Shown piece by piece: positions 28,432 through 45,765 of a stretch of DNA of 64,000 nucleotides. The position numbers were made by a program, and so were the translations under genes. Origin of the DNA: an uncultured Verrucomicrobia subdivision 3 bacterium (GTDB taxonomy: Bacteria; Verrucomicrobiota; Verrucomicrobiae; Limisphaerales; UBA11358); the NCBI GenBank assembly GCA_903921455.1, contig CAIXPZ010000234.1, positions 1 to 64,000 of the forward strand, given 5' to 3'. How positions within the stretch are numbered: position 1 is the stretch's first letter; each line of letters begins with the position of its first letter. The notes under the pieces were generated by a model. That model had not been told where the DNA came from, ran no database searches, and saw only the letters and a list, made by a program, of their open reading frames with translations.

Positions 28432-29442
28432 TTAATCGCGTTGACCGGAATTAAAACCGCCGCCGCTCAACTCGGCGGAAAGCAACGTCTGCGCGCCGGT
28501 GACCACGACGCGGTTGGTGACCGACAGCCTGGCGGAGAAAAATCCGCCGTCCACCGCCCGGTCAAGCGGCATTTCCTGACGTTAAAAACTGTTTTCACCT
28601 GTTTGCACAAAAACCCAGCCCTTGCTTTCGTGCCGCAACATTGCGCTAGCCGGAACCACCACGCCCTTCACCGGCACATCGGAAGATTTGATGAACGCCG
28701 TTACTGATTCGCCTGGAATCAGACGATCCAGCGTGCTCGGCTTGTCGTTCACAAACAAAAGTCCCTGCTGCTGCGTCTGCGCGTCCATAGCCGGCAACTG
28801 GTCAAAAAAACTCGCCGTGACCGGCAGTTCCCGCTTTGCCAGCGGCACGATGCGCGCTGATTGCGGCCACAACAAGCGCTCGCCCACCGGCAAATCTATG
28901 CGAATCAAGCCGCCTGGCTTCGTCACGATGTCCACGCTAGGACTCATTTTTCTAGGCTGGCCCGGTGGCACAACAATTTCACCCAGCATTTCCGGTATTT
29001 TCTTACCCCATGCCGCTTCCAGTTTTTGACGCACCGCCATTACGCCCAAGAAATTTTGCCGGTAGGTGGCTTCAGCTTCTTGGAACGCTTTTTCTGAAAG
29101 ATTGTTGTCTTTTTTTAACTGCTTGGAGCGCTCCAATTCTTGATGCGAAACATCAAAAATCATCAGCGCCCGCCCATAATCAGTCAGTAAATCCGTTAGC
29201 GGCGCGGTGTCGAGTGCGCGGCCAAACGCCTCGATCTCCGGCTGCCATTCGGTCGCGGCGAGATTGGCCACTTCGAGCCCGACGCGCTTTTGCGCTTCGG
29301 CGGAGAGCGTCAAGATTGCTTCGCCGCTGGTGCCTTGCGATATTTTTATCACCTCGGATTGCGCCGCAGGTTCCGCAGCGCGGACAGCTAGCGCAGGGGC
29401 CAGCAGCGCCGCAATCAGGACAAATTTTGGAATTATTTTCAT
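28432..29442 (-). pseudogene. Periplasmic adaptor (HlyD/CusB type) interrupted by in-frame TAA
   Basis: The open part (29442 to 28582) encodes a signal peptide (MKIIPKFVLIAALLAPALAV), a helical hairpin and a beta-barrel, ending WVFVQTGENSF. A TAA at 28584-28582 then interrupts, but the same frame continues for 49 codons (RQEMPLDRAVDGGFFSARLS, VTNRVVVTGAQTLLSAELSG) to a TAA at 28434-28432, three bases before the RND start. The continuation is the normal C-terminal membrane-proximal domain of such adaptors. So the gene is either a recent nonsense mutant, a read-through case or an assembly error. As written, the truncated 286-residue protein would lack the part that docks on the pump. The start overlaps the TolC-like stop by four bases. 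Confidence 0.8.
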
Positions 29443-30839
29443 AGCTGGGATTTTATCGGCAAAAATTGGAGCGCGGCGAAATCATCTGCGGGTCGTTGCA
29501 AGACGTCTTCCAGCGCGCCGATGGCGGATTGCAACTGTGCCTCGCTGTCGAGTTGTGCGAGCCGGACGGAATTCAATTCCATTTCCGCACTGAGCAAATC
29601 CAATGGTTCCGCGGCGCCGGCGCTCACTTGGGCGGCAACGGATTTAAGCTGACGCTCGGCCAAATCGAGCTGCGCGCCGGTGACTTCTGCTTGCGCTTGC
29701 GCCGAAGCAAATCCGGCCACGGCACGATCATTCGCTCCGATAACCTGCGCCTGAAGCTGAAGAAACTTCGCCGCCGCCAGCTCGCGCCGGGCCATTGATT
29801 CGGCAATCGGCCCCTGATTTTGATTCAGGACCGGCAGCTCAAACGTGAATCCGATCGTCCACTTGTTATCGCCCTGGTCGAACTGGTAGCCGGGGTTCAG
29901 GTGCAAATCAGGATACTGCTTCGCCAGCTCGAGCCGCAAATTTTCCTCGGCGGCGGCGTAATCCGCCAGCGCCGCGCGGATGTCCGCCCGGCCGAGCAAC
30001 GCGGCGCGGCGCATCCCGGCAGAAGTCGGATCCGAGGCAAAATCCATTTTAGGACCGGCCTGGAACTGAATTCCAGCCAATGCCGCGAGCGGCAGTCCGA
30101 GCGCTTCCGCCAGCCGCGAACGCGCGTCGGCCTGTTTGGCTTGCGCGGCGGAAAGCTCAATCTGCGTCTTGTTCAACGCCAATTGCGCCGGCACCAGTTC
30201 CGAACGCGCCATGGCCCCGGCTGTGAAGCGCTGCCGCTGTCGCCGCGTTATTTCATTTTGCGCCGCGAATTGTTTTTGCAGCAGTTGTGCGCGCGCTTGC
30301 GCAGCGGAAAATTCCTGCCGGGCGGCGCGAACCCCGCTGCGGATCTGCCACGCCACGGAAACATAGCTCCATAGGGCTGACTCGGCGATTTTCTCCGCCT
30401 CGGCCATGCGCTTGCCGCGTTTGCCGGCCGTCTCCACCGGCCAATCCACCGCGCCGAACGGCATCCACGGCGTGATACCGGATGCGGCGCTGAAATTGTA
30501 GCCCGGGCCGGCCGTGACGGTGGGATTCGGGCGTCCCCCGGCGGTTTTCACGCCAGCCGCAGCCACGCGCCATTGCGCGCGGGCAACGGCGAGGTCAGGA
30601 TTAAAATAAAACGCAGCGAGCGTCAGCGAATTCAGATCCCATTGCCGTGTAGGCCAGTTTTGCCAGGTGCCGCCGGAATTGGTGGTGACAAAAATTTTCA
30701 GCCCCTCATCGTCGAGCCGGCGGGCTTCGTATTGCGCGGCAATCTTTTCCGGCTCGAGCGGCTGCGGCTGGTAATGCGCACAACCGGTGGCAACCGCCGT
30801 TCCAATCAGGAGCGGCCAAATTTTCAGGCGGTCAATCAC
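29439..30839 (-). CDS. TolC-family outer-membrane efflux lipoprotein (CzcC/CusC type)
   Basis: 466 residues. The N-terminus MIDRLKIWPLLIGTAVATGC has a hydrophobic stretch ending in a lipobox-like ATGC, so the mature protein is probably acylated at Cys20. Two outer-efflux-protein repeats follow, rich in Ala and Gln with long helices (RQEFSAAQARAQLLQKQFAA; ELAAAKFLQLQAQVIGANDR) and the NPGYQFDQGDNKWTIGFTFE strand. It supplies the outer-membrane channel of the RND pump encoded downstream. It follows the YVTN-propeller gene by nine bases and overlaps the adaptor gene by ATGA, so all four genes look like one operon. Confidence 0.85.
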   Translation of the reverse strand: MIDRLKIWPLLIGTAVATGCAHYQPQPLEPEKIAAQYEARRLDDEGLKIFVTTNSGGTWQNWPTRQWDLNSLTLAAFYFNPDLAVARAQWRVAAAGVKTAGGRPNPTVTAGPGYNFSAASGITPWMPFGAVDWPVETAGKRGKRMAEAEKIAESALWSYVSVAWQIRSGVRAARQEFSAAQARAQLLQKQFAAQNEITRRQRQRFTAGAMARSELVPAQLALNKTQIELSAAQAKQADARSRLAEALGLPLAALAGIQFQAGPKMDFASDPTSAGMRRAALLGRADIRAALADYAAAEENLRLELAKQYPDLHLNPGYQFDQGDNKWTIGFTFELPVLNQNQGPIAESMARRELAAAKFLQLQAQVIGANDRAVAGFASAQAQAEVTGAQLDLAERQLKSVAAQVSAGAAEPLDLLSAEMELNSVRLAQLDSEAQLQSAIGALEDVLQRPADDFAALQFLPIKSQL

Positions 30840-30848
30840 GCGGTCAAA

Positions 30849-31856
30849 TTATTTGGCGGTGTTCCCGTAAACCAGTATTTTGAAGCTGCCCGCTGCCATT
30901 TTGCCACGCCGCTGGCCATCCGCCGGGGCGTCAAACTTGGCCGAGGCCAAATAGATTTTGTGCGTGACCGGATCCATCGCCATCGTGCGCGCGCCTTTTT
31001 CGGTTTTCAATGTTTGCACCACGGACAGCTGGTCACCGTCGGCCTGCGCTATCGTCACCGTGCCGTCCCCGCAGGAGGCGAACGCCAATTGGGTGGCCGG
31101 ATCAAACGCGTTGGCATCCACGCCGTCGCCGATGGGGACGGTCGCGAGCACTTTCCCGGTGGTGCTGTCCACCATCGCCATCATTTTGTTGCCACAGCCG
31201 AGGAAAAGGTGGTGGTTTTTTTCGTCGAAGGCCATGCCGCTCGCCTCTGCACCGGGCGCGATCGGCCAGCGGTGCACCACTTCATGTTTCATGGTATCAA
31301 TCGCGACGAGTTCGTTTTTGTCTTCGAGATTGTTGAAAATCAGTCCGGCTTTGGCATCGGACTGCGCAAATTCCGGTTTGCCGCCGAGCGGAATGGTGGC
31401 AACCACCTTGCCGGATTTAGCATCAATCACTGTCGCCGACTGGCCCCGGCCGTTAAATGTGTAAAATTCCGAATGGCCCGGTTCGTAAAGCATCCCGTCA
31501 GGATTAGCGCCGGTCTCGACTTTGGAAAGCGTCTGCAGCGTTTTCAAATCGACTATGGCCCCTTGATTTTCGCGGCCACACGTAACCAGACCGCGCTGTA
31601 GTTCCGGCGCGATGGCGATGCCGTGGACGCCGGGCGTATTCGTGATTTCGCCAAATACCTCATCTTTGGCCAGATCGATGACAACGACTTTGGTGGCGTG
31701 CGAAACATAGAGGCGTTGCGCCGCCGAATCCACGGTAAGATAATCCCAGCCGCCCTCGCCGCCGACGGGGATGGTTTTGATAAGGTGATAATTAACTTCG
31801 GCGGCCTGGGCGGCGACCACGGTCAGGCTGAAGGCCAGGGTAAGAAAAATTTTCAT
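30849..31856 (-). CDS. YVTN-family beta-propeller protein, periplasmic
   Basis: 335 residues with a signal peptide (MKIFLTLAFSLTVVAAQA). Seven-blade repeats of the YncE/YVTN type follow, for example YLTVDSAAQRLYVSHATKVV, VIDAKSGKVVATIPLGGKP and AFDPATQLAFASCGDGT. Such proteins bind nucleic acids or act as scaffolds; the role here is unknown. Being the first gene of the RND efflux operon, it may be an accessory periplasmic factor of the pump or of metal homeostasis. No metal-binding motif is obvious. Confidence 0.8.
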   Translation of the reverse strand: MKIFLTLAFSLTVVAAQAAEVNYHLIKTIPVGGEGGWDYLTVDSAAQRLYVSHATKVVVIDLAKDEVFGEITNTPGVHGIAIAPELQRGLVTCGRENQGAIVDLKTLQTLSKVETGANPDGMLYEPGHSEFYTFNGRGQSATVIDAKSGKVVATIPLGGKPEFAQSDAKAGLIFNNLEDKNELVAIDTMKHEVVHRWPIAPGAEASGMAFDEKNHHLFLGCGNKMMAMVDSTTGKVLATVPIGDGVDANAFDPATQLAFASCGDGTVTIAQADGDQLSVVQTLKTEKGARTMAMDPVTHKIYLASAKFDAPADGQRRGKMAAGSFKILVYGNTAK

Positions 31857-32020: not shown

Positions 32021-33088
32021 ATGCCGCCCAAAGCTGTTGAGAAATCTGTCGCCAGCGCCGCTGATGCGAAAGCCGCCGCCACGCGCGAACGCGAACTCGA
32101 GTCCGCCATCTCTTCTATCACCAAAGCCTATGGTGACGGCGCGATCATGCGCCTCGGCGATGCGCGGGCGCAGGTGAAGATTGATGTCATCCCTACCGGC
32201 GGTCTCGCGATTGACCTCGCGCTCGGCGTCGGCGGTCTTCCACGCGGGCGCGTTGTGGAGATTTACGGCCCCGAATCTTCCGGCAAAACCACGCTGATGC
32301 TCCACGTCATCGCCAACGCCCAAAAAGCCGGCGGTCTGGCTGCATTTATTGACGCCGAACACGCGCTGGATCCTGGTTATGCCAAGAAATTAGAGGTGAA
32401 TCTGGATGATTTGCTCGTCTCGCAGCCGTCCTCCGGCGAAGAGGCTCTGACCATTTGCGAAACGCTCGCGCGCTCCAACGCGCTGGACGTCATCGTCGTG
32501 GATTCCGTCGCCGCGCTTGTGCCCAAGGCTGAACTCGACGGCGACATGGGCATGGCCACGATGGGCATGCAGGCCCGCTTGATGAGCCAAGCCTTGCGCA
32601 AGCTCACCGCGATCCTCGCCAAATCCAAGACCACCTGCATTTTCACCAACCAGTTGCGCGAAAAAGTCGGTGTCATGTTCGGCAGTCCCGAAACCACGCC
32701 CGGCGGCAAGGCGCTCAAGTTTTACGCCAGCGTGCGCATTGATATTCGCCGCAAAGACCAGCTCAAGGACGCGGCCGGCAATGTTTATGGCAATCACACC
32801 CGCGTGAAGATTGTGAAGAACAAGGTCGCGCCGCCGTTTGCCGAAGCGGAATTCGACATCATTTACAACCAGGGCATCGACAAGGAAGGCAGCATACTCG
32901 ACGTGGGCATCGACTGCGGCGCGGTGGACAAGCGGGGTGCTTATCTGCAATTCGACGGCACGATGATCGGCCAGGGCCGGGATGCGGCCAAAAAGGCGTT
33001 GCAAGAAAAACCCGAGCTCGCCCAGAAAATCATCGCCGCCATCCACGCCAAGCGCGCGGAGGCTCTCGCCACCGCCGAATCCAAATAA
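32021..33088 (+). CDS. recA: Recombinase RecA
   Basis: 355 residues, full length. Walker [10 protein letters not shown] (83-91), [11 protein letters not shown], the L1 and L2 DNA-binding loops ([35 protein letters not shown]) and [15 protein letters not shown] are all present. The N-terminus carries an Ala/Lys-rich extension of about 25 residues ([20 protein letters not shown]), longer than in E. coli. RecA forms filaments on single-stranded DNA for recombination and triggers LexA cleavage. It is read alone or with the following gene, 32 bases downstream. Confidence 0.97.
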
Positions 33089-33120: not shown

Positions 33121-34836
33121 ATGAGCACTGCTTCCGAACTCGACCTCAACTTGGAAAACCTCTTCCAGCCCGCCTGGGCGCAGGGGAAAGCCGAGTCCAA
33201 CAAATTTGCCAAGTTCACCGGGAACGAAGGCGTCAAGCCCGAGCGCACCTTCAGCGGCAAGCCCGGCGAACGCCGCGCCCCGCGACGCGATGGTGCCGGC
33301 GGCGGCGGCGAACGCCGTGGTGGCTTTGGCGGTCCGCCCCGCGGCGGTTCCAAATTCGGCGGCGTCGAACGCAAAGGCGGTTTTCGTGGCGGCGAACGGC
33401 GCGATGAACCGCGTGGCGAACGCCCTCCGCCCCCCGCGCCGCTCCCGGAACTGAGCGTCGCTTTCATTCCCGAAGAACGCGGCGTCGAACAGCTTGCCCG
33501 CCAGATCAAGGTGACGGGTCGCGCGTATCCGCTCTTTCAGATCGCGCTGCTGATTTTGCAGAAGGCGGAACGCTATTCCGTCCAGCTAACCAAGAAAAAG
33601 GGCGAGGCCGCTGCCCAGCCGCTCTTCGTTTGCGCGCTGGATGATTCCCCGTGGACGAGCGAGGACGAAGCCGTCGCGCACGTGCTGAAAAATCATTTTG
33701 CCACGTTCTATCAGGCGGAACGCACCCAGACGGAACCGCCGAAGGGCGTCTACACGTTTGTTGCCCAATGCGGCATGAGCGGCGACATCCTGGGCCCGCC
33801 GAACTATCACGACTACCAAAACCAGCTGCGCAAGCTGCACGCGGAAAAGTTTTCGCGGATGCCCTTCGACATGTTCAAGGCGCGGGTCAAGATCGTGAAG
33901 GACGAGGCCATCGTGAAGAAATGGATCGAGGACCAGAGTTTCAAGACGGAATACGTCTGCCTCAACGTCCCCGAGCCGCTCAAACTCGCGACGATGGAAG
34001 ACGTGGAGAAGCATTTCCGCGCCACGCACAAGGATTCCATCATCAAGCCGGTGGAGACGCTCACGGTCGCCGGGCTGGCCAGCCGCAGCCTGCGCAGCAG
34101 CGGCTTGCAGCGGCTCATCCGCCAGGATTGGGAACAACAGAAGTTTTTCCCGCTGCCCATCGCGACCAAGCTGAGCCAGCAGTTCGCGCAATACGGCCTG
34201 CAATTCTTCAAGGTCAACAAGACCGTCACGCACGTCAGTGTAGCGCGCCCCACGTTCCTCGACCTGGAAACCACGCCGGTCTCGGAAAACATCAAGCGCA
34301 TCATCGAATTCATCAACGGCAACGCCAAGTGCTCGCGGAAGAAGCTGATCGAGGCGCTCGCGCCGACCCCCAAGTTGGCAAAAGTCCCGGTCACCGAGAT
34401 TCCCGTCTCGCCCGCGCCGGTGGCCGAAGGCGAAAACGCGACCGCCACGGCAGCAGCAGCGCCGGCCAAGCCCGCTGAACCCGCCGCGCCGGAAGCGACG
34501 CCGGAGCAGACCGCCGTCATCGTGGATCTGCACTGGTTGATTCATCAGGGCGCCGTGCTGGAATTTGCCGACGGTCGCATGGAAACGGCCAAGAAACCGT
34601 TGCCCAAGCCGCCGAAACCCGAAAAGAAGGCCCCCGCTGAGAAACCCGCCGCCGCGGGCGAAACCGCCACGGCCGTGGAAACGGTGACGGCGGAAAATGT
34701 CGCCAGCGAACTGGCCGCGGAAATCGCCGCCCCGGCAGAAACCCCGGCGGCCCCCGTTGAAGCCGCCGCCCCGGCCGTCAGCGAAACGCCGGCGCAGCCG
34801 GAAACGCCGCCCTCGACCGAAGGAACACCCGCATGA
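33121..34836 (+). CDS. Unrecognised Arg/Gly-rich protein with split winged-helix-like C-terminus
   Basis: 571 residues; I do not recognise a named family. Residues 41-101 are an RG/RGG-rich low-complexity segment (ERRGGFGGPPRGG; RKGGFRGGERR), the kind that binds RNA. Residues 110-385 are a globular region with CGMSGDILGPPNYHDYQNQL and a helical MFKARVKIVKDEAIVKKWIE. Residues 387-415 (NIKRIIEFINGNAKCSRKKL) and 463-490 (IVDLHWLIHQGAVLEFADGR) together look like one winged helix interrupted by a 47-residue Ala/Pro linker; an Ala/Pro/Lys tail closes the protein. Its stop overlaps the DEAD-box helicase start, which points to a shared job in RNA metabolism. That role is inference. Confidence 0.7.
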   Translation: MSTASELDLNLENLFQPAWAQGKAESNKFAKFTGNEGVKPERTFSGKPGERRAPRRDGAGGGGERRGGFGGPPRGGSKFGGVERKGGFRGGERRDEPRGERPPPPAPLPELSVAFIPEERGVEQLARQIKVTGRAYPLFQIALLILQKAERYSVQLTKKKGEAAAQPLFVCALDDSPWTSEDEAVAHVLKNHFATFYQAERTQTEPPKGVYTFVAQCGMSGDILGPPNYHDYQNQLRKLHAEKFSRMPFDMFKARVKIVKDEAIVKKWIEDQSFKTEYVCLNVPEPLKLATMEDVEKHFRATHKDSIIKPVETLTVAGLASRSLRSSGLQRLIRQDWEQQKFFPLPIATKLSQQFAQYGLQFFKVNKTVTHVSVARPTFLDLETTPVSENIKRIIEFINGNAKCSRKKLIEALAPTPKLAKVPVTEIPVSPAPVAEGENATATAAAAPAKPAEPAAPEATPEQTAVIVDLHWLIHQGAVLEFADGRMETAKKPLPKPPKPEKKAPAEKPAAAGETATAVETVTAENVASELAAEIAAPAETPAAPVEAAAPAVSETPAQPETPPSTEGTPA

Positions 34837-36074
34837 AATTCGCCGCGCTGGGATTGACCGAAAAGGTGCTCGAAGGCGTCCGCGCCGTCGGCTACACGGA
34901 ACCGACCCCGATTCAGCTCCGCGCCATCCCGCTGGTGTTGTCCGGCAAGGATGTCATCGGCAGCGCGCAGACGGGCACGGGCAAGACGGCGGCGTTCGCG
35001 CTGCCCATTCTGTCCAAGCTCGGCCACCATCAGCCCGGCGGCCCGCGCGTGTTGATTCTTGAGCCCACCCGCGAACTCGCGGCCCAGGTGGAAACCGCCT
35101 TCCGCGATTACGCGCGGTTCCTGGATTTGAAAATCACCGTCGTCTTCGGCGGCGTGGGTTACGGCAAACAGAATGATGAACTCCGCGCTGGCGCCGACAT
35201 CGTCGTCGCCACGCCCGGCCGCCTGCTCGATCACCTCGAACAAGGCACCGTGAAGCTCGACAAGGTGGAATTCCTCGTCCTCGACGAAGCGGACCGCATG
35301 CTGGACATGGGTTTCCTGCCCGACGTGCGCCGCCTGGTGGAAAAATGCCCGCGCCAGCGGCATACGGCCCTGTTCTCCGCCACCGTGCCGCCCCAGATCG
35401 AAACCCTCATCCAGTGGGCCATGCACAGCCCTGAAACCATCGAGATCGGCGCCCGCCGCACGCCCGCCGAGACGGTGAAGCACGTGATCTACCCCGTTTC
35501 CGACACGCAGAAGACCGACCTTCTCCTCGAGCTGTTGAACCGGGTGAACTACGATTCCGTGATCATTTTCTGCCGCACCAAACACGGCGCCGACCGCGCC
35601 GCGAGCCTGCTCAAGCGCGCGAACCACGCCGTGGCCGTCCTCCACTCCAATCGCACCCAGAAAGAACGCGAGCAGGCCCTCCAGGGCTTCCGCGACGGCA
35701 AGTTTGAGGTGCTGGTGGCCACCGACATCGCGGCGCGCGGCCTCGACATCGCCGACGTGAGCCATGTCATCAATTACGACGTGCCGCAGCATCCGGAGGA
35801 TTACATCCACCGCATCGGGCGCACGGGGCGGGCGGAAGCCACGGGCGACGCGTTCACCATCATGGTCGCGGAAGATGCGCCCCATGTTTTTGCGATTGAA
35901 CGCTTCATCAGCCAGAAAATCCCCCGGGTGAAGCTGGAAAACTTCGACTACCGCTATACCGCCCTGTTTGAAGAGGCAAAACCCGGAGCCGCGGCGGGTG
36001 GATTCCCTGGCAAAGTGCGGGGCGGCCGCGTCCACGGCGGCTATCATTTCGCCCCTGGCGGCCGGCGGCGGTAA
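34833..36074 (+). CDS. DEAD-box RNA helicase, RhlE-like
   Basis: 413 residues, with start overlapping the previous stop (ATGA, 34833-34836). All helicase motifs are visible: Q motif (PTPIQLRAIP), I AQTGTGKT, Ia PTRELAAQ, Ib TPGRLLD, II VLDEADRM, III SATVP, IV VIIFCRTK, V ATDIAARGLDIADVSHVINY and VI HRIGRTGRA. The C-terminal tail is short and basic/Gly-rich (GKVRGGRVHGGYHFAPGGRR), suited to RNA binding. It probably unwinds rRNA or mRNA structures, and the coupled Arg/Gly-rich partner could guide it. Confidence 0.93.
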   Translation: MKFAALGLTEKVLEGVRAVGYTEPTPIQLRAIPLVLSGKDVIGSAQTGTGKTAAFALPILSKLGHHQPGGPRVLILEPTRELAAQVETAFRDYARFLDLKITVVFGGVGYGKQNDELRAGADIVVATPGRLLDHLEQGTVKLDKVEFLVLDEADRMLDMGFLPDVRRLVEKCPRQRHTALFSATVPPQIETLIQWAMHSPETIEIGARRTPAETVKHVIYPVSDTQKTDLLLELLNRVNYDSVIIFCRTKHGADRAASLLKRANHAVAVLHSNRTQKEREQALQGFRDGKFEVLVATDIAARGLDIADVSHVINYDVPQHPEDYIHRIGRTGRAEATGDAFTIMVAEDAPHVFAIERFISQKIPRVKLENFDYRYTALFEEAKPGAAAGGFPGKVRGGRVHGGYHFAPGGRRR

Positions 36075-36198: not shown

Positions 36199-36570
36199 AT
36201 GAGTGGACCTGAAAAAAAAGATTCTGGGCCAAACATTAAATTTTGGATAATTGTTTGCCTGTTAGTGTGTGTAGGCGGCGTGATCTTTGCCGGGCCTAAT
36301 TTCATCAAGTTTCACTCCGCTTCTGCCGGCAACGCTTGCATCAACAATCTGCGCCAAATTGATGCAGCGGCGAACCAGTTCGCATTGGAGAAGGGCAAGA
36401 CCAACGGCGAAGCGATCAACTTTCCCAACGACCTCACGCCTTACATCAAACTTAACAGCAAAGGCAAGATTCCCGGATGTCCGGGCGGCGGCCTTTATTC
36501 CATCAAGAAAGTTGGCGACACGCCCACCTGCACCTTGAGCACCGCCACGCCGGCGCACGCTTTGCAATAA
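36199..36570 (+). CDS. Pseudopilin-like membrane-anchored protein
   Basis: 123 residues: a short hydrophilic start (MSGPEKKDSGPNIK), one membrane helix (FWIIVCLLVCVGGVIFAG), then a small domain with ACINNLRQIDAAANQFALEK, DLTPYIKL and CPGGGLYSI. The latter phrases match the soluble part of verrucomicrobial type II pseudopilins. The usual processing site (G-FTLIE) is absent, so it is not a standard pilin; it may be a pilin-derived inner-membrane protein. The neighbours give no secretion genes. Confidence 0.6.
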   Translation: MSGPEKKDSGPNIKFWIIVCLLVCVGGVIFAGPNFIKFHSASAGNACINNLRQIDAAANQFALEKGKTNGEAINFPNDLTPYIKLNSKGKIPGCPGGGLYSIKKVGDTPTCTLSTATPAHALQ

Positions 36571-40497: not shown

Positions 40498-43400
40498 GTG
40501 TATTCCCGCAGCGTTAGTCGAACCAGTGGCCTGTTGTTGACGGCAGGCTTGCTCCTTTTCCAAGTAGGAATATCGGTTGAGGCTAAAACCATCCGGCTGC
40601 GTAACGAGAATATTGAGACCGATTCCCCCACCAATCGCGCCGCGATGGCCGTTCAAAAGCGCGCCCAAGCGGTTGTTTCCGGACTTTATCTTATCCAGTT
40701 CAGCGGTGCACTTGAACCAGGCCAGCGCGCGGAGTTACTTAAGGCTGGCGTGGAGTTGATCAAATATGTTCCAGATGACGCTTTTATTGCCAAACTCAAC
40801 AACGTGACGCCGGCCAGCGTCGGGACATTGAGCTATGTAACATGGGTCGGGCCGTATCGGAAGGAATTCAAACTAAATCCACAGCTGGCTAAAGTTGCGC
40901 AGCTGGCGGCGCAGACGAATGAGCCGGTCAGCGTCAGCATCTTGCTTTCACCAACCGCAACAACGGCGGAAATATCCTCCGTGCGCTCGCATGTCGCGAG
41001 GGTTCAGCATGAAAGTAAATTGCGTCAAGGCATCATCATGCGCGGGGAATTATCGCCGGGACAACTCGACGCGCTCGCGCAATCCGGCGTGGTGTTATGG
41101 GTCGAGCGCGCGCCCAAAAGAAAAATCGTGGACGAGGCGGCGGCGAAAATTGTGGGCGGTGACGACGGCAATATCGCCACGCGCACGATGACGCAGCAAC
41201 TTGGCTTCGACGGCACCGGCGTGACGGTTTGCGTGGCGGACACCGGCCTCGATACTGGAAATACGAACACGATGCATCCTGATTTGAAAGGGCGCGTGAC
41301 GGGCTTCAAATATTACGGCAGCAACATAACGGATGGCTCCGATGGCTATGGTCACGGAACCCATTGCGCGGGCATCGTGGCGGGCAATGCGGCGTCGGGC
41401 GAGACCGATCCGGAAACGCTGCAATTTTACGGGCTGGGCGTCGCGTCTGGAGCGAACATTTTTGTGGAACGGATTTTCGACGACAACGCCGGCGAGGCGA
41501 ATCCATTTCCGGCGGATGAAACGCTGACCCACGACGCCGTGCGCGCCGGTGCGAAGGTGGGTTCGAATAGTTGGGGCAACGACGTGCAGGGCGAATACGA
41601 TTTGGATTGCGCGCAGTTCGATGAACTTGTGCGCGACGCGGATGCCGGCACGGCCGGTTATCAGCCATACATCCTGGAATTTTCCGCCGGCAACGCGGGA
41701 CCGAATTCGCAGACGGTTGGGAGTCCGGCGTGCGCGAAAAATGTCATTGCCACCGGCGCTTCGGATAACGACCCGGCCACGCTCTCTTCAACTTACGGAC
41801 TCTATGCGGATGGCCGCGACACAATGGCGGATTTTTCCAGTCGCGGACCGTGCGCGGATGGTCGCATCAAGCCAGATGTGGTCGCGCCAGGAACGTGGAT
41901 TGCTTCCGCCGCTTCGGCTAATGCGCTGAATCTCGCCAACACCTCGTGGACGGTCATTGATGATCTGTATGTGTTCATGGGCGGCACGAGCATGAGTGGT
42001 CCGCACGCCGCGGGCGCGGCGGCGATTTTCGTGCAGTTCTACAAATTCACGCACACGAATGCGATTCCATCGCCCGCGCTGACCAAAGCCGCGTTGATCA
42101 ATTCGGCGGAAGAACTCAACCAAAGCAACGGCGGGCCTGCTCCGGCACCGAACAACGACGAAGGTTGGGGCCGCATCACCCTGACCAATATCATCAACAC
42201 CAATATCGCCACCGCGCCGCGTGCCTATGTTTTTGTGGATCAAACCACACTGCTCACCAACAGCCAGGTTTTCACGCAGCATATTTTTGTGCGCGGCACC
42301 GGTCAGCCGCTGAAGGTGACGATGGACTATACCGATGTCCCGGGATTTCCCGGCGCGTTGCCGGCACTGGTGAACGATCTCGATCTCGAAGTCGTCGCGC
42401 CGGACGGCACGCTGTATCGCGGCAATCAATTCGGCGCGGGCGAATCCGTGGCCAACTCGCCCACGACCGACAAGTTGAATAACGTCGAGGGAGTTTTTAT
42501 CACGACGCCCGCCGCCGGCGACTGGCAGGTCCGCGTGCGAGCCACCAGAATAGTTTCGGACGCGCTCACCAACACGGCGGTGGCGGATCAGGATTTTGCG
42601 CTTGTGGTATCGGGCGATCTGGCACGGACGGGCACAGGCTTGATCTTGCTCGACCGTCCGGCATACACCGCCCCCGGCGTGATGCAGCTCACTGTTTTCG
42701 ACGCCGCGCGCGCGGCGAGCAACAGTGTGTCGGTGCTCGTCACGAATCTTTCGTTGCACACCGGGATCACCAAAATTTTGAGCGCGCATGGAAGTTATGG
42801 CGCGTTCACCGGTGCGGTGACGACGGTGACCGGCACGGCGGGCGCGGGACAAATCCAAATTGCGAACGGAAATTCGCTCGAAGCGGATTATCTTGACGCT
42901 GGCAGCAGCAAACGCAGCGCGACGGCCGTGGGCGATTTGACGGCACCGACCATCAGCGGAGTCGCCGACACCACGGATCTGGGCGTGTTGACGCTCACTT
43001 GGACCACCAGCGAACCCGCGACGTCATTCGTGCGCTACGGAACAAACCCGGCCAACCTCAATTTGTCGGTTTCCAATAATACGCTCGTCACCACCCATGT
43101 GGTGAAATTGAGCCATTTGATTCCCGGCAAAACCTATTATTATTCGGTGAGCTCCACCGATGCTGCCGGCAACGCGGCGACGAACAACAATGGTGGGGTG
43201 AATTTCACCTTCATCGGCATCGCGACGCCGACTGTCTTGCTCGTGGACGCATATGACACCGCGGCCGAAGAGGCAAATGGAGCGACAGTGATTCCGGACA
43301 GCACTTATACTAACACGCTCAACGCGGCGGGCATCAGCTACGGCTTTTGGAAAGTGAATACGCGCGGCGGTTATCCGCAGCTCGCCGATTTGAAACCGTA

Positions 43401-45765
43401 TCCGGTGGTGATGTGGCGCACGACGGATGACGTGGTGAATTACGGAGTGGATGCCGATAGTTTGCCTGATCCGACTGCAACCAATAACACATTGAGCGCG
43501 CAACAGCAGTTAATGATTCAGAACTATCTTAATGATGGCGGTTCGTTCTTCATGGCGTCGATGGGAATCCTGACGCAGCTCGGCGATGTGCCTTTCCGCC
43601 ATGATGTGTTGCGCGTGGCCGGCTTCCGACAAAATTCCTCGCCGCCCTTTCCCTGTTCGGATTGCGATGAAGACGCCGGCGTGTCCGGTATTTTTGGCGG
43701 CGCGGGAACAATAGCGAACGGAATTTATCAGACGCTGAACTACGCGAATTATCCGAGCTTCGACGACGGGCTCGGCGATTTCTTCGGCCCAGATTTTTCG
43801 GACACCTTCACGCCGTCACCGGATGCGCTCACCGTGGCGTTATCGACGGACACAGGAAATCCCTGTGGCGTGAGTTATCCCGCGCCGGGCGTGGACAGCC
43901 CGGGCCGGGTCGTGTTTCTCTCCTTCCCGTTTGATGCGCTGCCGACGAGCGGCGCTTCCAACAATGCCGCCGCGCTGTTAAAAAACGCCATCGCGTTTCT
44001 GGCGCCAGGCGCGGACGGACGCGGCGTGGTCTTACTCGACAATTCCGTTTACACGACGAATCTGCTGGTGACGGTGCAGGTCGGTGACGCTGATCTCACC
44101 GGCGCGGGCACCACGACGGTGACGTTCGGCACGAGTTCGCGCACAAACCGCACCACCATCACACTCTACGAGACGACACATCAGGGCTTGTTCTCAGGCT
44201 ATCTCACGCTCGTTGCCGGCACTGCGGGGGCAAATCAATTGCGCGTGCAGAACGGCGACACCATCATCGCGACTTACACCGACGCCTCGCCCGCGAGCAA
44301 CGTCGTCGTGACCGCGCTGGTGGACACCGTGCCGCCTGCCATTACGAACGTCCTGGCGGTAACGGATTATTACAACGCGCAGATCACGTGGAAAACTTCC
44401 AAGCCATCCGACTCGGCGGTGCAATTCAACGAAGTCAGCCAGCCGCCCGCGAACGTCGTGTATGCTGCCGCGTTGGTCACGAATCATGTTGTCACTCTCA
44501 ACGGCCTGCTGCCGAACCGCACGTATCATTACGCCGTCATCAGCCGCGATCAGGCCGGCAATACGACGGTGGATGACAAGGGCGGAATTTATTATACGTT
44601 TGCGACGCTCACCGCGCCGAAGCCCCCCTGGTTCGACAATCTTGAAGGCGACACCAGCGGCTGGACGGTCGTGCCGGATAATTCGACTGGCACCGAAACC
44701 AACTGGACATTTGGCACGCCCAGCAACGGGTTGATCAGCAGCGCCCACTCTGGCACGAACACCTGGGGCTGCCCACTTAAAACCAGCTCCTCCTTGTTCC
44801 TCGTCAGTTCGTATCTTTATGCGCCGATCATTGATTTGGCGGGATTGTCGAGCGCCACCTTAAGTTTCTGGCATGTCTGTGATTTCAGCCGCACAGATCC
44901 CACTTTTGGCATTCCCTGCGAGGACGGCATCATTTACATCAGCACGAACAGAAGCGTACCGCCGCAAAATCTTCCCATCTATCTCGACTACGAGGGCGAC
45001 GCCACCGCTGGCTGGAAAAACGAGACCGTGGATTTGACGCCGTTCGTCGGCAAGACCATTCAAGTGGTGTTTTATTATGAGGGCGTCAACATCGGCGAGC
45101 CGCTTTATGGCTGGACGATTGATGACATTGCCATCACCGGCGTCGTCGCTGGCGGTAACATCACCATCACGAAAAATCTCGGCCAGGGTGGATGGACGCT
45201 CGCCACGCGTTCGGCGCTGGGCCCCACACCGGTTGCGACGGGCGTCGCGCCATCCACCACGTTAACAAATATGCCGCCCGCGAACTACGTCGTGCAATTC
45301 GGCGATGTGCCGTATTACCTCACGCCGGACAATCAGACGAACACGCTCGCGATGGACGCGACCATCAATTTCACCGGCAACTACACATTCCCCGACGTGA
45401 ATCACAACGGAATTTCCGACGCTTGGGAAATTGAATTATTTGGCGGCGTCACCACCAACCGCACGGTTCAGTCCGATTCCGATCACGACGGCATGACCGA
45501 TTATGCGGAATTTATCGCCGGCACCGACCCAACCAATGCCGCCTCGCGGTTTTATTTCACCGGCGAAACCATCCAGAGCAACCGCCTGGTGCAGATGCAG
45601 TGGACCGTGGTCACCAACCGGCTGTATCAGGTCTTTAGTTCCAGCAATTTTTCCAGCTGGGTCACGAACACGCCCTGGATGCAGGCTTCCAATAGCCCCA
45701 CGATGAATTACCCCGTCACCAACTCCGGCGGCGCACGGTTCTATCGCGTTCAAGTGGTGCCTTGA
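40498..45765 (+). CDS. Giant secreted subtilisin-like protease (S8) with FN3-like and TSP3-like modules
   Basis: 1755 residues, GTG start, signal peptide (SGLLLTAGLLLFQVGISVEA). A propeptide-like region runs to about 225. The S8 catalytic domain (about 235-545) has Asp248 in CVADTGLDT, His286 in GYGHGTHCAG and Ser498 in GGTSMSGPHAAG. Then follow a P-type beta-sandwich (570-705), an FN3-like domain (about 818-910: TWTTSEPATSFVRYG), a roughly 250-residue region with DGGSFFMAS, a second FN3-like domain (about 1280), a MAM/choice-of-anchor-like domain (1378-1545), a Ca2+-binding TSP3-like stretch (about 1636: DVNHNGISDAWEI) and the shared C-terminal module ending ARFYRVQVVP. It probably degrades extracellular protein. 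Confidence 0.88.
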   Translation: MYSRSVSRTSGLLLTAGLLLFQVGISVEAKTIRLRNENIETDSPTNRAAMAVQKRAQAVVSGLYLIQFSGALEPGQRAELLKAGVELIKYVPDDAFIAKLNNVTPASVGTLSYVTWVGPYRKEFKLNPQLAKVAQLAAQTNEPVSVSILLSPTATTAEISSVRSHVARVQHESKLRQGIIMRGELSPGQLDALAQSGVVLWVERAPKRKIVDEAAAKIVGGDDGNIATRTMTQQLGFDGTGVTVCVADTGLDTGNTNTMHPDLKGRVTGFKYYGSNITDGSDGYGHGTHCAGIVAGNAASGETDPETLQFYGLGVASGANIFVERIFDDNAGEANPFPADETLTHDAVRAGAKVGSNSWGNDVQGEYDLDCAQFDELVRDADAGTAGYQPYILEFSAGNAGPNSQTVGSPACAKNVIATGASDNDPATLSSTYGLYADGRDTMADFSSRGPCADGRIKPDVVAPGTWIASAASANALNLANTSWTVIDDLYVFMGGTSMSGPHAAGAAAIFVQFYKFTHTNAIPSPALTKAALINSAEELNQSNGGPAPAPNNDEGWGRITLTNIINTNIATAPRAYVFVDQTTLLTNSQVFTQHIFVRGTGQPLKVTMDYTDVPGFPGALPALVNDLDLEVVAPDGTLYRGNQFGAGESVANSPTTDKLNNVEGVFITTPAAGDWQVRVRATRIVSDALTNTAVADQDFALVVSGDLARTGTGLILLDRPAYTAPGVMQLTVFDAARAASNSVSVLVTNLSLHTGITKILSAHGSYGAFTGAVTTVTGTAGAGQIQIANGNSLEADYLDAGSSKRSATAVGDLTAPTISGVADTTDLGVLTLTWTTSEPATSFVRYGTNPANLNLSVSNNTLVTTHVVKLSHLIPGKTYYYSVSSTDAAGNAATNNNGGVNFTFIGIATPTVLLVDAYDTAAEEANGATVIPDSTYTNTLNAAGISYGFWKVNTRGGYPQLADLKPYPVVMWRTTDDVVNYGVDADSLPDPTATNNTLSAQQQLMIQNYLNDGGSFFMASMGILTQLGDVPFRHDVLRVAGFRQNSSPPFPCSDCDEDAGVSGIFGGAGTIANGIYQTLNYANYPSFDDGLGDFFGPDFSDTFTPSPDALTVALSTDTGNPCGVSYPAPGVDSPGRVVFLSFPFDALPTSGASNNAAALLKNAIAFLAPGADGRGVVLLDNSVYTTNLLVTVQVGDADLTGAGTTTVTFGTSSRTNRTTITLYETTHQGLFSGYLTLVAGTAGANQLRVQNGDTIIATYTDASPASNVVVTALVDTVPPAITNVLAVTDYYNAQITWKTSKPSDSAVQFNEVSQPPANVVYAAALVTNHVVTLNGLLPNRTYHYAVISRDQAGNTTVDDKGGIYYTFATLTAPKPPWFDNLEGDTSGWTVVPDNSTGTETNWTFGTPSNGLISSAHSGTNTWGCPLKTSSSLFLVSSYLYAPIIDLAGLSSATLSFWHVCDFSRTDPTFGIPCEDGIIYISTNRSVPPQNLPIYLDYEGDATAGWKNETVDLTPFVGKTIQVVFYYEGVNIGEPLYGWTIDDIAITGVVAGGNITITKNLGQGGWTLATRSALGPTPVATGVAPSTTLTNMPPANYVVQFGDVPYYLTPDNQTNTLAMDATINFTGNYTFPDVNHNGISDAWEIELFGGVTTNRTVQSDSDHDGMTDYAEFIAGTDPTNAASRFYFTGETIQSNRLVQMQWTVVTNRLYQVFSSSNFSSWVTNTPWMQASNSPTMNYPVTNSGGARFYRVQVVP

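Follow-up and report, generated by a model that had tools for sequence, protein, structure and literature searches.

We analyzed a 64,000-nt stretch (the window) comprising positions 1 to 64,000 of contig CAIXPZ010000234.1, assembly GCA_903921455.1, from an uncultured Verrucomicrobia subdivision 3 bacterium. Our focus was a gene for a 571-amino-acid (aa) protein that directly precedes the gene for an RhlE-like DEAD-box helicase. The TGA stop of its open reading frame (ORF) overlaps the helicase ATG at position 34833 by four bases (ATGA), as stated in an initial annotation made from the sequence alone. That annotation had described the protein as uncharacterized, with an Arg/Gly-rich segment, a core of unknown fold and one winged helix cut by an Ala/Pro linker, and had suggested a helicase cofactor or an RNA-chaperone system. 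With high confidence, we assign the protein to a family of its own that is spread through Verrucomicrobiota, carries core repeats related to C2H2 zinc fingers and includes a winged helix. The features of the locus are listed in Table 1.

Table 1 Features of the family gene, its protein product and the adjoining genes in the window.
Feature	Residues	Position	Strand	Details and basis
recA		32021..33088	+	Pfam RecA, 2.6e-128; upstream of the family gene, 32-base gap
Family gene, 571-aa protein		33121..34836	+	ATG start
N-terminal conserved short motif (LDLNLENLFQPAWAQG)	7-22	33139..33186	+	Family form approximately LxxFxPxW
Arg/Gly-rich disordered tract	41-101	33241..33423	+	Composition, model
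Finger module 1	165-205	33613..33735	+	Putative ligands C171-D174-H187-H192 (CysAspHis2); alignment, hhalign
Central module	206-260	33736..33900	+	PPKGxY..VAxCGxSGxxLGPPNYHDY; conservation
Finger module 3	273-310	33937..34050	+	C280/H298/H303 kept, second Cys lost; homologous to module 1
Helical segment with hairpin	318-383	34072..34269	+	Consensus, model
Winged helix, first half	384-415	34270..34365	+	Model
Ala/Pro linker inside winged helix	416-460	34366..34500	+	Low predicted local distance difference test (pLDDT) score in the middle
Winged helix, second half (contains DLHWLIHQGAVLEFADG)	461-492	34501..34596	+	Model
Disordered acidic Ala/Pro-rich C-terminal tail	493-571	34597..34833	+	Net charge -7
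RhlE-like DEAD-box helicase, 413 aa		34833..36074	+	Own short Arg-Gly-Gly (RGG)-like C-terminal tail; Pfam

Spread of the family in Verrucomicrobiota

Protein searches scored 7,996 candidates and returned 4,232 homologs at E ≤ 0.001, with query coverage of 66–100% among the 120 matches listed, so the 571-aa ORF is real beyond chance. In line with the description as uncharacterized, the window protein had no match in Pfam or NCBIfam, no sequence match in PDB and only a chance-level match in PHROG (E = 0.37). Family proteins were called hypothetical wherever the listings gave a name.

Genome surveys were centered on the genome of a close relative, L001, whose protein is 84% identical to that of the window, and all surveyed genomes lay within Verrucomicrobiota. 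A profile search of 387 genomes drawn evenly from the phylum detected the family in 242, the weakest best match among those listed having an E value of 1.6e-15. With a more diverse profile, the family was found in 146 of 188 genomes of the class of L001; 134 of these gave a single match and 12 gave two. All four second matches shown in this class survey lay on the contig of the first match and had an equal open-frame length; they, therefore, look like pieces of one gene, and the family is mostly single-copy. The narrower profile used for the 387 genomes gave two matches in many genomes. Absences in these surveys are soft because genome completeness was unstated. Members from Akkermansia muciniphila comprise 547 aa, one cluster in the protein search (P0231) standing for 902 sequences. 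One named cluster was labeled Candidatus Acidoferrales, possibly as a result of mis-binning.

Searches of open-license papers on Verrucomicrobiota in connection with DEAD-box/RGG proteins, zinc fingers and winged helices, on bacterial RGG and DEAD-box proteins, and on Akkermansia essential genes and transposon libraries listed no paper recognizable as a description of the family; one listed paper dealt with DUF34 instead. In the accessible parts of these sources, the Planctomycetes–Verrucomicrobia–Chlamydiae (PVC) signature protein of PMC3444138 is a different one of 53–80 residues, and 100 essential Verrucomicrobium spinosum proteins of unknown function are reported in PMC12283558.

Finger-related repeats and a split winged helix

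The family has a conserved layout of N-terminal short motif, Arg-rich tract, core and winged helix. AlphaFold2 modeling of the full-length protein using a 59-member alignment (A3) gave a mean pLDDT of 78.3 and a predicted template modeling (pTM) score of 0.63, with a confident core from residue ~111 to 420 (pLDDT of 86–98 in 10-residue blocks) and low-confidence N and C termini. For the core alone (residues 108–383, alignment A4), these values were 90.0 and 0.71. Trp19 of the hydrophobic N-terminal motif is present in 58 of the 59 aligned members, and the model places a low-confidence helix at residues 11–14 of this motif.

Comparison of the core modules using hhalign linked modules 1 and 3 with a probability of 95.9 (E = 6e-9), or 94.8 (E = 5e-8) with the window protein as lead row, and the ten remaining module pairs stayed at a probability of ≤1.4 in both runs. 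Judged by sequence, modules 1 and 3 are repeats that are homologous to each other and akin to C2H2 zinc fingers. The classical ligand set is absent from the window protein, where finger 1 carries Cys-Asp-His-His (CDHH) and finger 3 lacks the second Cys; some homologs carry full C2H2 ligands at the same aligned positions. The site at window residues 171–192 reads C-x2-C-x12-H-x4-H in nine members of alignment A3 (L093, L094, L097, L098, L099, L104, L121, L129 and L130), and L136, L137, L138 and L140, with open frames of 362–425 aa, have a full finger at the module 1 site and a second at the module 3 site. Across 97 members, the full pattern occurs at finger 1 in 13; 200 rounds of shuffling gave 0.06 on average and 1 at most. 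Of these members, 48 have CDHH as the ligand set at finger 1, 13 have CCHH and 8 have SDHH (24, 10 and 8 of 63 after thinning to <80% identity), and CDHH is kept in 42 of 43 close relatives, window included. Because the ligands are conserved, finger 1 of the window protein may hold zinc through Cys-Asp-His-His. Database copies of the type represented by L136, L137, L138 and L140 start near the core (P0224, 352 aa), with no Arg/Gly tract shown. This type, with complete ligands and without the tract, is possibly the ancestral form.

Between the repeats lies the central module with its GPPN(Y/H)H signature, which was not detectably a finger when compared to the other modules using hhalign. It contains CGMSGDILGPPNYHDY (residues 217–232), with C217 in 95 and H230 in all of the 97 members. 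A second Cys at position 220 occurs in four only (L136, L137, L138 and L140).

Among known systems, eukaryotic C2H2 arrays (PRDM9, CTCF and ZIC3) resemble the divergent members in ligand spacing. A profile with such members matched solved C2H2 fingers at module 1 with a best E value of 0.0019, a match that is not independent since finger-bearing members were deliberately placed in the profile. The family differs from these arrays in having a large module between its repeats, which are degenerate for the most part, and fold-level similarity is weak, with CTCF and ZIC3 as the sole finger-fold matches of the predicted structure. Module 1 also matched 6skg_Bo (‘Nucleic acid-binding protein, containing C2H2 zinc-finger’; 47-residue chain, E = 0.028) and 9qf4_Bk (‘C2H2-type domain-containing protein’; 64-residue chain, E = 0.5), both of which we take to be located in archaeal ribosomes; similarity beyond the finger match was not seen. 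The members scanned gave only sub-cutoff matches to Pfam zinc-finger models; for P0226, a divergent relative, a PF04780 (DUF629) label had been precomputed. The description of the core as a fold unknown throughout is, thus, not supported, since two of its repeats are related to C2H2 fingers.

The proposal of a single winged helix interrupted by an Ala/Pro linker agrees with the AlphaFold2 model, in which helices (389–400, 406–413 and 461–476) and strands (479–482 and 487–489) follow one another in the order expected of a three-helix domain with a wing. The linker spans 3–83 residues across 59 members and is as short as 3–11 residues in 18 of them; the two halves, therefore, represent one domain. 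MecI and RPC34-type subunits are among the closest known kinds of winged helix.

If the finger-related core and the winged helix each read DNA and the Arg-rich tail acted as a nonspecific clamp, the protein would be a DNA-binding regulator or nucleoid protein working like Ros/MucR. Like the window family, Ros/MucR proteins have a bacterial C2H2-type finger, and PMC9779718 reports Ros/MucR members with CysAspHis2 and without zinc; CysAspHis2 also occurs in the window protein. Ros is smaller in that description, comprising 142 aa with a single finger motif and a spacer of 9 residues. The window protein comprises 571 aa and combines two finger-related repeats, in which the spacer is 12 residues, with a central module, a winged helix and an Arg-rich tail. 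Pfam and NCBIfam scans of family proteins did not place them in Ros/MucR, whose model was not among the matches. DNA reading is also hard to reconcile with a third helix and wing whose net charge is negative (−2), in the window protein as in the family median, unlike a typical DNA-reading helix, with insertions of up to 83 residues just before this third helix, and with the Arg/Gly composition and DEAD-box neighbor, which point to RNA. We consider this reading unlikely.

Taken together, we conclude that this is a new protein family built from known folds, its parts being of known kinds. In the libraries and literature searched, we encountered neither this combination of parts nor its broad distribution within the phylum nor such a gradation of finger ligands.

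Charge distribution and the candidate RNA adaptor role

The Arg/Gly-rich segment noted in the initial annotation was confirmed, with 14 Arg and 20 Gly in 61 residues, RGG at positions 66, 74 and 89, and RG at 98. All 59 aligned members have an Arg-rich tract before the core (11–30 Arg). RGG precedes the core in 40 of them and is missing in 19, so the repeats are not a conserved trait and the term ‘RGG’ suits the window better than the family. Eukaryotic RGG proteins that work with DEAD-box helicases share an Arg/Gly-rich disordered tract with the window protein; the family differs from them through its members without RGG and in having no helicase domain on its chain.

The N terminus has a net positive charge in every aligned member (+1 to +14), as does the central module (+1 to +7), and isoelectric points are 10.6 for the basic tail and 9.0 for the core. 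Finger 1 is acidic; its net charge is −5 in the window protein, and the family median is identical. Because the tail and core are basic, nucleic-acid binding is probable, and composition together with the DEAD-box neighbor favors RNA over DNA. We, thus, tentatively prefer a Verrucomicrobiota-wide nucleic-acid-binding protein that acts as an RNA adaptor, at times beside a helicase. In such an adaptor, the Arg-rich tract and basic parts of the core would hold RNA or, less likely, DNA, and finger 3 would fold despite its incomplete ligands. In view of its acidic third helix and wing, the winged helix would more likely dock proteins than read DNA. These parts could bring RNA to partners, for example, the RhlE-like helicase in the window lineage, and the role may lie in ribonucleoprotein remodeling during ribosome assembly or mRNA turnover.

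Alternatively, the short motif, the disordered linkers, the degenerate fingers and the winged helix might each bind proteins, resulting in a scaffold with no nucleic-acid role. Finger 3, short of one ligand, and the acidic finger 1 would fit this explanation, as would winged-helix structure matches that include chains we take to be protein-docking (cullin WHB, ESCRT-II, ScpB and MukE). The consistently positive N terminus and central module argue against it, and we regard a pure scaffold as distinctly improbable.

Helicase linkage and neighboring genes

The helicase matched the Pfam models DEAD (1.1e-51) and Helicase_C (2.8e-35) and scored 428 bits against the NCBIfam RhlE equivalog model, under its cutoff of 743. 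Judged by this equivalog standard, it is RhlE-like and not RhlE. Its short RGG-like tail, KVRGGRVHGGYHFAPGGRRR, lies at window positions 36012–36071.

Translational coupling to this gene could signify a stoichiometric complex, with the family protein as the dedicated cofactor envisaged in the initial annotation, and the RGG-like tail of the helicase would be in keeping with it. To define adjacency, we required the same strand and a downstream position within 3 kb; among 61 close loci, 53 were testable and eight too short. A helicase adjoins the family gene in 31 of the 53 (one at 1,695 bases), nine with the exact four-base overlap, leaving 22 without. On a tree built from 52 close relatives, at least 12 changes in adjacency were needed, six of them forced by well-supported branches, compared to a mean of 17 for shuffled labels, which gave values as low in 5–7 of 500 rounds. 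Adjacency, which occurs in both main branches, is, therefore, clustered beyond most shuffles, in favor of a cofactor, but repeatedly broken or made. Against a cofactor, close sisters differ, such as L015 with a helicase downstream versus L033 without, and seven of ten nonadjacent genomes searched encode an 84–92% identical helicase elsewhere, although separate genes can still form a complex. Of the other three, one yielded an 84% identical fragment (~110 residues) plus a 41% relative, one had nothing closer than a 54% relative, and one gave no match at E ≤ 1e-30. In L033, a 164-aa ORF instead overlaps the 3′ end of the family gene.

Linkage was largely absent from 40 distant loci, covered for up to 6 kb on each side with some cut by contig ends; helicase-like matches occurred in three, one of them a direct neighbor, and recA in none. 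The DEAD-box helicase at L099:4353–5438 (49% identical) precedes the family gene on the same strand at a distance of ~300 bases, unlike the order in the window. L119 (39%, opposite strand) and L126 (25%) have helicase-like matches within the fetched stretch. With shorter flanks, two of 30 loci contained a helicase (L062 in the genome of L001 and L079 in the genome of L099), and three of 20 further hand-picked loci did so (L142, L143 and L145; 79–92% identical). On the basis of these surveys, the helicase pair represents an old neighborhood of the window lineage and not a family trait. The conserved adjacency that the initial annotation had proposed to look for, thus, holds in part among close loci and fails in distant ones, and it lacks the family-wide conservation of an obligate subunit. 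We conclude that the helicase shares an operon with the family gene only at times and is not an obligate subunit; a dedicated helicase subunit is unlikely, and we rate a stoichiometric cofactor complex as improbable.

The recA gene, which lies upstream of the family gene in the window, recurs in 27 of the 61 close loci, many with cut flanks. A 500-aa open frame on the minus strand (34545–36047), antisense to the helicase and the 3′ end of the family gene, is probably a by-product of high G+C content and not a gene. Downstream, a 123-aa ORF (36199–36570) without Pfam match has a single N-terminal hydrophobic stretch and presumably resembles a prepilin-type protein. A 1,755-aa subtilase (40498–45765; Peptidase_S8, 6.7e-45), which also matched purple-acid-phosphatase-N, fn3 and TSP3 more weakly, looks from its sequence like a large surface or secreted protease. 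On the other side, an outer-membrane efflux protein (29439–31856, minus strand; OEP, 1.4e-38) is encoded beside a beta-propeller protein (Cytochrom_D1, 1.7e-07).

The family, thus, offers a usually single-copy protein across much of a phylum, including the gut commensal A. muciniphila, that is without its own family in the libraries searched. Its natural ligand series CCHH, CDHH and SDHH within one family is useful for asking what role zinc plays in a finger. A bolder reading, which we consider quite unlikely, is that of a phylum-specific ribonucleoprotein hub, in which two C2H2 fingers would have dropped most zinc ligands and been supplemented with a condensing Arg-rich tail and with a winged helix for docking. 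If true, Verrucomicrobiota would organize RNA with helicases in a manner functionally like eukaryotic RGG/zinc-finger granule proteins, and such an RNA hub would open up post-transcriptional biology in a little-studied phylum.
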